Shown: one piece after another, positions 20,971 to 32,567 of the stretch
How the letters are laid out: the number at the start of each line of letters is the position of its first letter
Position numbering within the stretch: position 1 is the stretch's first letter
Source: Rhodanobacter sp. ANJX3
Lineage (GTDB): Bacteria > Pseudomonadota > Gammaproteobacteria > Xanthomonadales > Rhodanobacteraceae
NCBI RefSeq assembly: GCF_014200755.1
Contig: NZ_JACHCM010000010.1
Coordinates: 1-64,000 of the forward strand
Length of the DNA stretch: 64,000 bases
Reading direction: 5' to 3'
Notes under the pieces: model-generated
Told to the model about the DNA's origin: nothing
Seen by the model: only the letters and a program-made list of their open reading frames with translations
The model's database searches: none
Program-made: the position numbers and the translations under genes

Positions 20971-21007
20971 AAACAAAAAGCCGGCAAGCGTGCCGGCTTT
21001 TTGTTTG
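20971..21007 (+). terminator. Bidirectional Rho-independent terminator
   Basis: The stem AAAAAGCCGGCA pairs with TGCCGGCTTTTT over a 4-base loop, with AAACA and TGTTT extending the pairing on each side. It lies 18 bases after the pseudopilin stop and 36 before the cytochrome c stop, between convergent genes, and can end both. Confidence 0.92.
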
Positions 21008-27761: not shown

Positions 27762-30197
27762 TTAGAACGACGCGCCGAACGTGATCTGGAACGAACGATC
27801 CTCCAGCAGCGAGTAGTAAGGCGCGGAAGCAAACAGCGTCACGCCGTTGGCATCCTTGATCTTGCCCGGGTTCGACGCGAGAAATGCACCGATATTGTTG
27901 GCGTTGGTCAGGGCCTTGCGATCAAGCAGGTTGAACATGTTGAGCTTTATGTACGGCTTGGTGATGAACGACGAAATGTCGTTGAAGCGCCAGCCCGCGC
28001 TCAGATTGAGCGTTGCATAGCCGCCTGCGCGTTCCGTGTTGGACCAGTCGCCGTAGATGGAGCTTCGAACCTTCTCATCGAGGCTCGCCCAGAACGGACC
28101 CTGGTCGTAACTGACGCGCAGATAGCCGAGGTTGCGCGGCGTGTTGAGCAGGTCCTTGCCCTTGGTGTTGTAAATGCCGTCACCGAGCGAGTTGAGATCC
28201 GTTTCCAGCGTCGACTTCTGATATGCATAGGACGCATACACCGTCCAATTCGGCGTCACCTTGTAGCTGGCTTCCGTATTCACGCCGCGGTTGTGGACCT
28301 TCGGCAGCGACAGGTAAACCGTGGCGAACGTTGTTTCGTCAAAGCCGGAGATCTGCTTGTTGTTAAGGTTGGAAACGTACGCGTCAACGTTGGCGGAGAA
28401 CGTATCGTTGTAGAAGCGCCAGCCCAGATCAGCCGTCGTCGCCGTCTCGGGCTTGTTGAGGAAGCTGCTGGCCGGAACCGTCTGACCAGGGTAATTGGCC
28501 GCGGCGGCATTCTGCAGAAACGCACCGTTGATCGGAGCGCGGAACGTCTTGCCCATGCCGAAGTAGAACTGGTTCTGTTCGTTCAACTGATACTTGGCGC
28601 CGACCGTCGGGCTCCACTTGTGGTACGTCGCATCGACATCTTCCACGCCGTAGCCGATATAGCCGGAACGTACCGAGCCGGGATACTGAAAGTCGAAACC
28701 GCTGCGTTTTTCCGACAGGAACGATGCGCCAGCCGTGAAGGTCCAGAAGTCGTTCGGCGTCCACGTATCCGTGGCAAACGCCTTTTTCGTTTCAGTGGTG
28801 GTGTATTCGTTGAACGGACGCTGCACGGTGCCATCCGGATAACGAATCACTGAATCGCGGCCAAGGTAATCAGCCGGAATACCTGCAGCATTGATGGCCG
28901 TGTAGACGGTGGTCTGCTCCTGGCGCGGGCGCTCGTACCAGAAACCGTATTCCAGGCTGTTGTCCTGGCCGAAATCCTGGTTGAACTTGGCAATGATGCC
29001 CGGGCGCATGGTGTACGAACTGTTGTACGAGTAAACCAGCGCCTTGTTGTTCTTGCCGCCGATCACACCGTTGCCGTTCAGATCCTCGTTGGCGTACTGG
29101 TACAAGTTCTGCGTTGACGTCGATTCCGTGAACGTGGCGCCGCCGCCCGAGCCGCCGTTGCCATACTGGAAGTAAGGCACGACAGACAGACGCAGGCTGT
29201 CGCTGAGCTTGAACTCGCCATCCAGGCTGACCAGCCAGCTCTTGAACGGGTTCTTGTGGAACGCGTAGAAGTTGGCGTCGGTCGGCGTCAGGCGGGTGCG
29301 GTCGTAGCTCTGATCGTAACCACCGGAGGCCAACTGCGCCTTGGTCAGGCTCTGATACAGATAGCTGTCCTGGCGCACGTACTGGACCGAGCCGGAGATG
29401 GTGTTGTTGTCGTCGATGGTCCAGATCGTCTTGCCGTCGATCTTGTCGGCATCCTGGCTACCTGGACCACGCCACAGGTTGGCCTGGTTGTTGGAATACG
29501 ACAACCACGAGCGGAACGCACCCGTGTCGCCGGTATTGAGGCGGATAAACGAACGGCGCCAATCGTTGCTGCCGAAGGTCTGCGTCACGTCGATGCCCGC
29601 TTTGTGCGGTGGATCGATGGTGACCCACGCGATCGAGCCACCGGCGGCGCCGCTGATCGGCGTATCCACATCCGGATAACCCTGCAGCACGGTGATGTCG
29701 CCGATGTTTTCGGTATCGCCGTATTCGGTCGAGTAAACCTTGTAGTTGCCGCTGTCGTTGATCGGTGCACCGTTCACAGTGGTGCCGATTTCATCGCTGG
29801 TGAAGCCGCGGATGCTGTAGTTGCCGTTGGCCAGGCCGTTGTTGTCGTCGGTCGACGCGTTGACGCCAGGAATGCTGTCGATCAGCTGCACGAAGGTGGC
29901 GCCCGGCGCCGCATGAACGATCGCGTCGCGAGTGATGGTGGAAACCGCCTTCGGCGCCGTCTGCACGGCCATCAAGCCACTACCCAACGAGAGCGACTGC
30001 GCCTTGACCTGCACGGCGGAAAGCTCCTGCACGCGCTTGGTGTCGTTCGACGTAGTGGTGTTGGACGTGCTGGACACGCCAGCGCGCGGAGCGGCCTGCG
30101 TGCTGGCGGCCTGGTCGGTGGCCGTCTGCGCCATGACCATGCCCGATCCCATAACACAGGCAAGCGCAATCGCGGCGGATAGGTGGCTTCGCTTCAT
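27762..30197 (-). CDS. TonB-dependent outer-membrane receptor
   Basis: This 811-residue receptor has a signal peptide (IALACVMGSGMVMAQ), a TonB-box-like segment (ELSAVQVKAQSL) near 60, a plug domain (PGATFVQLIDSIPGVNAS, NYSIRGFTSDEIGTTVNGAPIND, GDITVLQGYPDVDTPISGA) and a long beta-barrel ending in aromatic ITFGASF, the outer-membrane insertion signal. The ATG at 30197 has AGGGA ten bases ahead. It is a single gene with a sigma-70-like promoter overlapped by a large palindrome about 250-300 bases upstream. The ligand is not readable. Siderophore, vitamin or sugar are all possible. Confidence 0.93.
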   Translation of the reverse strand: MKRSHLSAAIALACVMGSGMVMAQTATDQAASTQAAPRAGVSSTSNTTTSNDTKRVQELSAVQVKAQSLSLGSGLMAVQTAPKAVSTITRDAIVHAAPGATFVQLIDSIPGVNASTDDNNGLANGNYSIRGFTSDEIGTTVNGAPINDSGNYKVYSTEYGDTENIGDITVLQGYPDVDTPISGAAGGSIAWVTIDPPHKAGIDVTQTFGSNDWRRSFIRLNTGDTGAFRSWLSYSNNQANLWRGPGSQDADKIDGKTIWTIDDNNTISGSVQYVRQDSYLYQSLTKAQLASGGYDQSYDRTRLTPTDANFYAFHKNPFKSWLVSLDGEFKLSDSLRLSVVPYFQYGNGGSGGGATFTESTSTQNLYQYANEDLNGNGVIGGKNNKALVYSYNSSYTMRPGIIAKFNQDFGQDNSLEYGFWYERPRQEQTTVYTAINAAGIPADYLGRDSVIRYPDGTVQRPFNEYTTTETKKAFATDTWTPNDFWTFTAGASFLSEKRSGFDFQYPGSVRSGYIGYGVEDVDATYHKWSPTVGAKYQLNEQNQFYFGMGKTFRAPINGAFLQNAAAANYPGQTVPASSFLNKPETATTADLGWRFYNDTFSANVDAYVSNLNNKQISGFDETTFATVYLSLPKVHNRGVNTEASYKVTPNWTVYASYAYQKSTLETDLNSLGDGIYNTKGKDLLNTPRNLGYLRVSYDQGPFWASLDEKVRSSIYGDWSNTERAGGYATLNLSAGWRFNDISSFITKPYIKLNMFNLLDRKALTNANNIGAFLASNPGKIKDANGVTLFASAPYYSLLEDRSFQITFGASF

Positions 30198-30445
30198 TTG
30201 GATAGTTCCCTGTTGAGTCATGTAATGAGTTGCTGCGGGCCTGAGCTACGCATGGAGCCATGCAGGCACAGGCTGGTTCGCGAAAGCGCGTTTGAGTCTG
30301 CCAAACTGGATTCGCTTTGGCTGGCAAGCCGACGTTGTGGGGCGTCGCCAGCGATGAAGCGTTGCCCGAACAAAAAACCTGCGACCACATCCCCCGGAGT
30401 CGTCGATGCCAAAAACGCATGATTCCACGCGAATTTTACAGAGTC

Positions 30446-30473
30446 TTTACAAAAGTTTCATTCCAAGTGTCAA
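30446..30473 (-). promoter_or_regulatory. Predicted promoter of the TonB receptor
   Basis: On the minus strand TTGACA (30473-30468) and TGTAAA (30451-30446) are 16 bases apart. The -35 lies inside the 36-bp palindrome. Transcription would start near 30439, giving a leader of about 240 bases before the receptor start. Predicted from consensus match only. Confidence 0.5.
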
Positions 30474-30498
30474 CGCAATATATTGCGATCACACTTGG
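30463..30498. promoter_or_regulatory. 36-bp palindromic operator candidate
   Basis: Outer arms CCAAGTGT and ACACTTGG are perfect inverted repeats. The centre GCAATATATTGC is a perfect 12-bp palindrome. The two 4-base spacers (CAAC, GATC) are the only unpaired part. The symmetry is far greater than expected by chance and the site covers the predicted -35 of the TonB-receptor promoter, so a dimeric or tetrameric repressor site is likely. It does not resemble the Fur box at 47566-47598. Confidence 0.7.
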
Positions 30499-30705: not shown

Positions 30706-30840
30706 ATCTCGCCGTGCCTCGCGCCGGGAGCGTTTTTTGCGCTCAGGCCAAGGAAGAACGAGGAGCGGACGTCGATCTACGACGGAGTGTGATGACGCCG
30801 GGATGCGGTCAAACCGCTCCCGGCGCGAGGCACGGCGAGA
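30706..30840. repeat. 135-bp palindromic element with 27-bp perfect inverted arms
   Basis: The left arm (30706-30732, starting ATCTCGCCGTG and ending GGGAGCG) and right arm (30814-30840) are exact inverted copies of 27 bases. The 81-base centre carries a nested hairpin (CGTCG-ATCTA-CGACG, 30770-30784). The element begins 14 bases beyond the stop codon of the acyltransferase gene. This layout is that of a small non-autonomous mobile element or a dispersed extragenic palindrome. No second copy was seen in this window. It could also end transcription of the upstream gene. Confidence 0.72.
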
Positions 30841-30854
30841 TCGAGAACAGGCTC

Positions 30855-32567
30855 TTAAGCAGCTTTGCCCAGATAACGCGCACGCTTGGCCGGCTTGAGC
30901 CGAGCCAGGTCCAGCATGACGAGACCGTCCACGCAGCCGGAAAAATCGGGATCTTCACCGAAGTCGAGAAACTGCACCCCGTCGGCATCGACCAGATCCA
31001 CGTACTGGCGATACAGCACGGGTAGGCTCACGCCCAGCGCGTCCAGATGGTGCTTGAGTTTGCCCAGCCCCGCCGATGCGTCGAGCCCCTGCAAGGCCTG
31101 CCGCACGCCGTCGCTGACGTCGCTGGAAATAACGAACGGCCGACGCGCTTCGGCCAGGCCCGGCGTGCCGAAATAATGCTGATGCGCGGCCACGATCCAT
31201 TCGCGCGCTTCGCGCGGCATGGACACCGACATGCTGACCGGACCGAACATGTAGCGCAGGTCCGGATGCCGCTGGAGATACAACCCGATGCCTTGCCACA
31301 GCTGGTCGAGCGCACGCGAGCGCCAGTACGCCGGCGCCACAAAGCTTCGGCCCAGTTCCAACCCTTGCGCCAGACGTGACTCGAGCGCCGGCGAGTAGCG
31401 AAACAGGCTGGCCGTATAAAGACCGGCCATGCCGCGCTCGGCGAGCAGCCTACCGCCGTGACCGAAACGGTAGGAACCGACAATACGCAGCGCCTTGGTA
31501 TCCCACAGCACCAGATGCTCGTAATGCGGGTCGTAGGCATCGAGATCACGCCGCGTGCCGGTGCCCTCACCCACCTTGCGGAAGGTAAGTTCACGCAGAC
31601 GACCGATCTCGCGCATCACCGGGCTGTCGAGCGCGCCCTTGAACAGCCATGCCTGCTTGCCATCGCCGAGATCGGCGAGTTTTTCCGACTGCATCAGCTC
31701 GGCCGCTACCTGATCGACCGGCTCCGGGTGCGCCAGAGGCACCTGGCCGCCGAAAATCAGCCCGCGATGCCGGCCCACGCGATACACGTGCCGACGCATC
31801 AGCTTGGCCGCCTGCTCGGGCGAGCCACCGCTGCGCTGGGCCAGTTCGTCGGCGCCGATCAGCGCGCCGATGCTGAAGCCGATCCGTCGGCTACCGACCG
31901 TCACCGCTTCGCGCGGCAGCATGGCGGTACTGAGCGGCTTGGCCAGCATCGACAAGCCGTAGAACATCGCCGAATTGCGTGCGGCGACGTGGACCGGCAG
32001 CACCGGCACTTTCCTGCGCATAGCCAGTCGCGCAAAGCCGTCCGACCAACGGCCGTCGCGCACGCCGTTGGCGCGCACGCGTGACACCTCGCCGGCAGGA
32101 AACACGATCAGCGCCTGACCTTCCTCCAGCGCGCGATAAATGCCGCGCAGTCGCGAAGCGCTGCCTTTGCCGAACACGTCCACCGGCAGCAGCAGTTTTT
32201 TCAACGGGGGCACCACGGCCAGCCAGTCATTGCCGAGAATCCGCACGTCGCTGCGCACCGAACCGATCAGCTGCAGCATGGCCAGTGCATCCTGCATGCC
32301 CAGCGGATGGTTCGCCACGACCAGCAGGCCGCCGTCGACCGGAATGTTTTCGCGCTCGCGCGGGCTGATTTGATAGCTGGTGCCGAGCAGGTCGAGCACA
32401 CGCTCGACGAAATCGAAGCCTTCGGCGTTGCCGACTTTATCCAGTACGCGGTTGAAACCGTCTTCGTCGGCCAGTCGCCCCAGCATGTCGGCGACGGGGC
32501 GACGGATTCTGGGATGCACTGCAAGCCAGGGCAACCGCTCGGTAAGGGTCTGTTCGATGGAGAGCAT
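30855..32567 (-). CDS. Two-domain acyltransferase: PlsC-like plus N-acyltransferase (OlsF-like candidate)
   Basis: This 570-residue protein has an N-terminal lysophospholipid-acyltransferase domain (about 1-270) with VVANHPLGMQDALAML as the HX4-5D-type motif and IVFPAGEVSR as the substrate block. The C-terminal half (about 300-560) resembles OlsB/GNAT-type hemolysin-related N-acyltransferases (REIGRLRELTFRKVGEGTG, YDPHYEHLVLWD, IVGSYRFG, LELGRSFV). Fusions of this type include OlsF of Serratia, which makes ornithine lipids. A role in making an aminolipid or modifying a lysolipid is inferred. A palindromic element sits just beyond its stop. Confidence 0.85.
   Translation of the reverse strand: MLSIEQTLTERLPWLAVHPRIRRPVADMLGRLADEDGFNRVLDKVGNAEGFDFVERVLDLLGTSYQISPRERENIPVDGGLLVVANHPLGMQDALAMLQLIGSVRSDVRILGNDWLAVVPPLKKLLLPVDVFGKGSASRLRGIYRALEEGQALIVFPAGEVSRVRANGVRDGRWSDGFARLAMRRKVPVLPVHVAARNSAMFYGLSMLAKPLSTAMLPREAVTVGSRRIGFSIGALIGADELAQRSGGSPEQAAKLMRRHVYRVGRHRGLIFGGQVPLAHPEPVDQVAAELMQSEKLADLGDGKQAWLFKGALDSPVMREIGRLRELTFRKVGEGTGTRRDLDAYDPHYEHLVLWDTKALRIVGSYRFGHGGRLLAERGMAGLYTASLFRYSPALESRLAQGLELGRSFVAPAYWRSRALDQLWQGIGLYLQRHPDLRYMFGPVSMSVSMPREAREWIVAAHQHYFGTPGLAEARRPFVISSDVSDGVRQALQGLDASAGLGKLKHHLDALGVSLPVLYRQYVDLVDADGVQFLDFGEDPDFSGCVDGLVMLDLARLKPAKRARYLGKAA

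Follow-up and report, generated by a model that had tools for sequence, protein, structure and literature searches.

A 14-bp sequence, CGCAATATATTGCG, upstream of a TonB-dependent receptor gene of Rhodanobacter sp. ANJX3 is probably the operator of a putative regulator of TonB-receptor and peptide-use genes. It lies at positions 30474 to 30487 of the 64,000-nucleotide stretch of DNA analyzed here (the window), inside an imperfect 36-bp palindrome at 30463 to 30498, neither the palindrome nor its parts being assigned a strand. The proposal builds on the identity and spacing of this core in the closest ortholog and on its enrichment in the genus, and because the core recurs in relatives before receptors, peptide transporters, and proteases, it is read as belonging to a probably undescribed feeding-control circuit and not as a private switch. 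Bacteria of this order have many TonB receptors, the ligands and control of which are mostly uncharacterized.

The receptor gene (27762 to 30221, minus strand) codes for an 819-aa protein with Pfam Plug and TonB_dep_Rec_b-barrel matches; the best NCBIfam TonB-siderophore model scores below its cutoff, and a comparison with PDB sequences gave no match. The palindrome is upstream of the receptor, 241 bp from its ATG. The next gene upstream, transcribed from the same strand, is olsF (30855 to 32567, minus strand), coding for a bifunctional ornithine lipid synthase (NCBIfam NF052615, 741 bits with a cutoff of 620), and the palindrome is 356 bp past the olsF end. Between olsF and the palindrome there is also a 31-nt inverted repeat, 97% complementary and with its arms 74 nt apart (30706 to 30736 and 30811 to 30841), part of which is found again, at 81% over 58 nt, at another locus of the same genome (L098); it resembles a small repeat element.

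The palindrome, CCAAGTGTCAACGCAATATATTGCGATCACACTTGG, was recovered by an inverted-repeat search of the window as two 18-nt arms with zero gap and 89% complementarity (16 of 18 pairs), the failing pairs being the 9th (C/C, 30471 and 30490) and the 11th (A/A, 30473 and 30488). The initial annotation located it correctly and was right that it is a palindrome, although not in describing it as perfect, and its division into 8-bp arms, a central 12-bp palindrome, and two unpaired 4-base spacers needs revising, since each supposed spacer has two paired bases among its four and the inner palindrome is thus 14 bp, not 12. Inverted repeats with at least 16 of 18 pairs are expected 0.003 times per 64-kb window and were seen in none of 20 dinucleotide shuffles, and the 36-bp sequence is present in one copy in the 4.65-Mb genome with up to three mismatches allowed; the palindrome is real, and chance is excluded. 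The sole other 16/18 match in the window, at 20971, has an A-run and a T-run at its ends and by reading looks like an ordinary terminator.

The palindrome follows the end of olsF in the direction of transcription, and its minus strand folds at −18.1 kcal/mol, so that it might be taken for a 3′-terminal RNA hairpin of the olsF transcript, serving as a terminator or stabilizer. This is very unlikely, as no T-run follows the stem, a terminator scan reports none at the palindrome, and the counterpart in the closest ortholog folds at only −5.7 kcal/mol despite an identical DNA core. Rfam searches of seven loci gave no match.

The palindrome in its large form was found in this genome only. Searches of 45 congeners and of 233 family genomes for a 24-base form with up to three mismatches each found it in one genome, this one, and a 20-base form has no exact matches in a scan of GTDB contigs that may omit the window's own record. 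Since the large motif is in no other genome searched, the regions upstream of the receptor orthologs were compared (40 loci, 38 of them with upstream sequence, the exceptions being L046 and L048). Motif counts use all 38, and 31 were aligned on a tandem TGTAAA box described below, with L016, L017, L019, L020, L021, L024, and L027 left out. The closest ortholog (L039, a locus also numbered L083; 79% identity) has an identical core, and the distance from core to tandem repeat, TTGTAAA-N4-YTGTAAA, is 21 bp in both genomes. The outer arms CCAAGTGT (30463 to 30470) and ACACTTGG (30491 to 30498) are gone there, with 0 of 11 flanking pairs remaining. A 14-mer scan of the 38 orthologs finds the core ahead of the tandem box in just two, this genome's and L039. 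On this comparison, conservation is limited to the 14-bp core and does not extend to the 36-bp figure. Absence from orthologous loci had been named in the initial annotation as what would refute the motif; the 36-bp motif is indeed absent from them, but the core is kept in one ortholog.

Two other accounts of the large palindrome bear on these comparisons. In one, the whole 36 bp forms the operator for a regulator serving this receptor alone, bound by at least two dimers, which is in keeping with its single copy in the genome and its strong symmetry over 36 bp; it is improbable, however, given that the closest ortholog is without the outer arms, that the core recurs at other genes, and that no regulator gene adjoins the palindrome, the neighbors being olsF and PpnN. 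In the other, the core is real but unimportant and the large palindrome arose as a by-product of mutation, for example of template switching, by which imperfect palindromes can be extended. In its favor, the outer arms are unique to this genome, and three core sites elsewhere are flanked by long pairing stretches of unrelated sequence (L066:1490-1525, with 9 of 11 pairs, and L073:1493-1522 and L195:3016-3045, with 8 of 11 each). Against it are the fixed spacing of the core in an ortholog of 79% identity, the association of the core with receptors and peptidases elsewhere, and a mean flank pairing over 77 sites that is barely raised (3.2 versus 2.9 of 11), and we regard it as unlikely. Conservation of structure and not of letters was also considered, with palindromes of differing sequence near the tandem repeat in L004, L005, and L006 as the first hint, and was set aside: the box-aligned congeners show a shared block instead, which in several of them reads GGCCATT...AATGGCTGGAA.

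The preferred reading, in which the 14-bp core is the operator, draws on its recurrence in congeners. With at most one mismatch, the core has 62 occurrences, spread over 34 of the 45 congeners, compared with 3 for a reversed control, the dinucleotides of which differ from the core's. Thirty of the 62 places, those with a returned locus, were examined, and the facing genes were assigned with Pfam. Nine code for TonB-type receptors (L064, L066, L073, L075, L079, L081, L083, L087, and L092), including the receptor of the window (L081), its closest ortholog (L083), and an Oar-like protein (L092); four code for POT/PTR2 transporters (L069, L071, L076, and L078); and five code for peptidases of the M15 (L065), M28 (L070), S8 (L082), and pro-kumamolisin (L080 and L085) types. 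The remainder are one phhA/AsnC pair and 11 other or unassigned genes. The pro-kumamolisin gene at L080 is 597 bp from the core and another gene is on the site's other side; outside the window, ORFs and start codons were called with our own scripts, so that distances there are approximate. According to a crude ORF caller, 12 of the 30 core sites fall within an ORF, in most cases within a 5′ extension or on an antisense frame.

The exact 16-mer TCGCAATATATTGCGA has 50 matches in the GTDB collection, six of them in Lysobacterales (four Dyella, one Rhodanobacteraceae isolate, and one Lysobacterales bin), and 4 of these six are without a clear target. Eleven of the 50 matches were inspected, and of the six in Lysobacterales, one faces an M4 peptidase (L136), one a TonB receptor (L153), and one a DUF6662 protein (L129), with a sub-threshold Plug match at L154 and no assigned target at L124 and L148. 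The initial annotation had proposed a dedicated repressor or activator, perhaps responding to the receptor ligand. Recurrence of the core before further genes for TonB-type receptors, POT transporters, and peptidases makes it unlikely that its regulator serves this receptor and its ligand alone, and the suggested response to that ligand is unsupported.

A second test used a looser pattern, CGNAAWWWWTTNCG, in six genomes, where it is found at 39 places compared with 4 for its reversed control. All 39 were inspected, and 9 are inside called ORFs. Eleven of the places, at 10 promoters, face TonB-type receptors: L081, L083, L160 (the ortholog of the window's receptor in genome G006), L174, L177 (with two sites), L184, and L201, together with the Oar-like L187, L191, and L105. 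L105 is the one other core site of this genome at one mismatch, upstream of an Oar-like receptor whose fragment has no Pfam match and shares 64% identity with L191 across 335 aligned positions. Single places face a POT transporter (L194), a DPP-IV/S9 peptidase (L188), and, 660 bp away, a pro-kumamolisin (L200). The excess of receptors has a P value of 4e-12 to 1e-7 if 1 to 3% of genes are assumed to encode such receptors, figures that flatter the result because the pattern was shaped after the leaders had been viewed, 3 of the 10 promoters are those of this receptor or its orthologs, and the dinucleotides of the control differ. Against the operator reading, CGCAANATNTTGCG at one mismatch is without excess within this genome (15 places versus 14 for the control), and three of the five loose-pattern places are inside genes. 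In the closest relative, two loose-pattern sites are 53 bp apart before one TonB receptor (L177:2995-3070), hinting at putative multi-site binding.

Elements of the same general form are common in the receptor leaders. CG-N10-CG with at least eight A/T bases inside is present in 33 of the 38 ortholog upstream regions (shuffle mean, 5.9; maximum, 10), for a total of 63 (shuffle mean, 6.4; next best spacing, 19), and in 88,920 bases of receptor coding sequence there are four; the orthologs are related, so these occurrences are not independent events. Five orthologs (L009, L018, L022, L031, and L041) have no such element. A separate feature of the leaders is a terminator-like hairpin followed by a T-run, downstream of the tandem box and ahead of the receptor start, found in 26 of the 38 upstream regions (shuffle mean, 0.7; maximum, 4) and exemplified by L004:1177-1306 and L010:1254-1383; this genome is among the 26, but with its hairpin at another place. 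Both examples are in alignment A1, which consists of 22 of the 26 hairpin-bearing regions, selected for having the hairpin; across these leaders, six of the seven stem pairs are changed on both sides, and a nearly invariant CG(N8)TTNCG element comes after the hairpin. The hairpin could be an attenuator, or it could be the end of a separate small RNA.

The relation of the palindrome to the receptor promoter differs from that first described, in which it covered the predicted −35. A TTGACA is present inside the palindrome (30468 to 30473, minus strand), and the best −10 at the usual distance from it is, by reading, TAAAGA at 18 bp. The promoter scan reports a single hit, from 30461 to 30433, starting just outside the palindrome, and a conserved tandem repeat with an 11-bp period, TTGTAAA-N4-CTGTAAA, occupies the −35 region (30435 to 30452, minus strand), starting 10 bp beyond the palindrome edge. 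With both of these outside it, the palindrome is upstream of the probable promoter, and the case for its covering the −35 is weak. The strict tandem repeat is present in 21 of the 38 ortholog upstream regions and in none of the shuffles, with the same half-repeats at a 13-bp period in six and at two other spacings in one each. A weak −10-like hexamer, AATCAT (30419 to 30424, minus strand), is 10 nt after the second half-repeat, as in many of the box-aligned orthologs, a spacing obtained by reading.

The tandem repeat is probably an OmpR/PhoB-type response-regulator box in place of a −35. It has the adjacent TGTAAA repeat with an 11-bp period and the −10-like hexamer about 10 nt on that characterize a PhoB box, the latter distance again by reading. 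Its letters differ from those of the pst promoters of the same genomes, this genome's own reading TTGTCATCTCCTTGAAAC, and it agrees with the Pho box consensus at 13 of 18 positions, four of which are free positions (random maximum, 15). The box may belong to a response regulator other than PhoB.

No regulator of the core was found. The best match to the Fur box is 11 of 19 in its Xanthomonas form (random 101-nt stretches of the window: mean, 9.2; maximum, 14) and 9 of 19 in its Escherichia coli form (mean, 9.2; maximum, 13), which is background level and bears out the earlier remark that the sequence is not Fur-like. The TyrR consensus fits best on the tandem repeat, not on the core, with a score at the background maximum. 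It is quite improbable that a known regulator with a wider regulon, of the NrdR or the Lrp/AsnC type, has its box in the core, though each has something to recommend it. The core shares the central CAATATATTG and 13 of 16 letters with the NrdR consensus (random maximum, 10), but the mismatches include the CG caps, which are family-wide, and no ribonucleotide reductases are among the Pfam-assigned targets at the loci examined. For Lrp/AsnC, there is a locus, L091:1008-2532, at which phhA and an AsnC-family gene are divergent and a one-mismatch core is in the short gap between them; however, this is 1 of 30 loci and the only one with an AsnC-type gene next to a core site, and the core agrees with the E. 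coli Lrp consensus at only 11 of 15 positions, within the random range (mean, 9.6; maximum, 12). The AsnC-family gene at L091 is an unproven candidate for the family of the regulator, and neither its product nor PhhA has a match elsewhere among the loci examined.

Comparable regulatory systems are known. In Xanthomonas campestris, TonB-receptor operators include the Fur box and the palindrome of the xylose regulon, and palindromes upstream of several TonB receptor genes define a nutrient regulon (PMC1790865); the letters are different from those of the core, and here peptide transporters and peptidases make up a large part of the targets in addition to receptors. In other Gammaproteobacteria, HypR is described as one regulator over peptidases, a peptide permease, and a TonB transporter, and TyrR as one over peptidases and phhAB (PMC5343134), a resemblance of targets in that a single regulator spans peptidases and uptake or phh genes. 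In the full-text literature searched, which leaves out most subscription papers, there is no description of the core or its regulon, and the sole literal 14-mer match is in a malaria paper with no evident connection.

Of the proposals in the initial annotation, a protein-binding operator is the best-supported reading. A dimeric transcription regulator would bind the core, the operator having the general form of CG, ten mostly A/T bases, and CG, with half-sites CGNAA and TTNCG, and would, in this bacterial family, control TonB-type receptors together with peptide transporters and secreted peptidases. At the receptor of the window, it would be positioned 21 bp upstream of the tandem TGTAAA box, itself probably bound by an OmpR/PhoB-type response regulator, and could modulate the promoter, by activation or repression, in accordance with a nutrient signal, which may be amino acids or peptides. 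The outer arms, peculiar to this genome, may extend the binding or may be incidental. More tentatively, and with rather less confidence than we attach to the operator itself, the regulator may be a family-wide and undescribed one, often with several sites per promoter, that coordinates TonB and Oar-like receptors, POT transporters, and secreted peptidases and works at this receptor with the tandem box and, in most orthologs, a conserved leader terminator.

If this is so, a single circuit would serve these bacteria in scavenging proteins and peptides. An operator that some TonB receptors share with peptide transporters and peptidases would also provide a testable guess at the substrates that these receptors import, and DNA of the 14-bp core would serve as a handle for fishing out the regulator.
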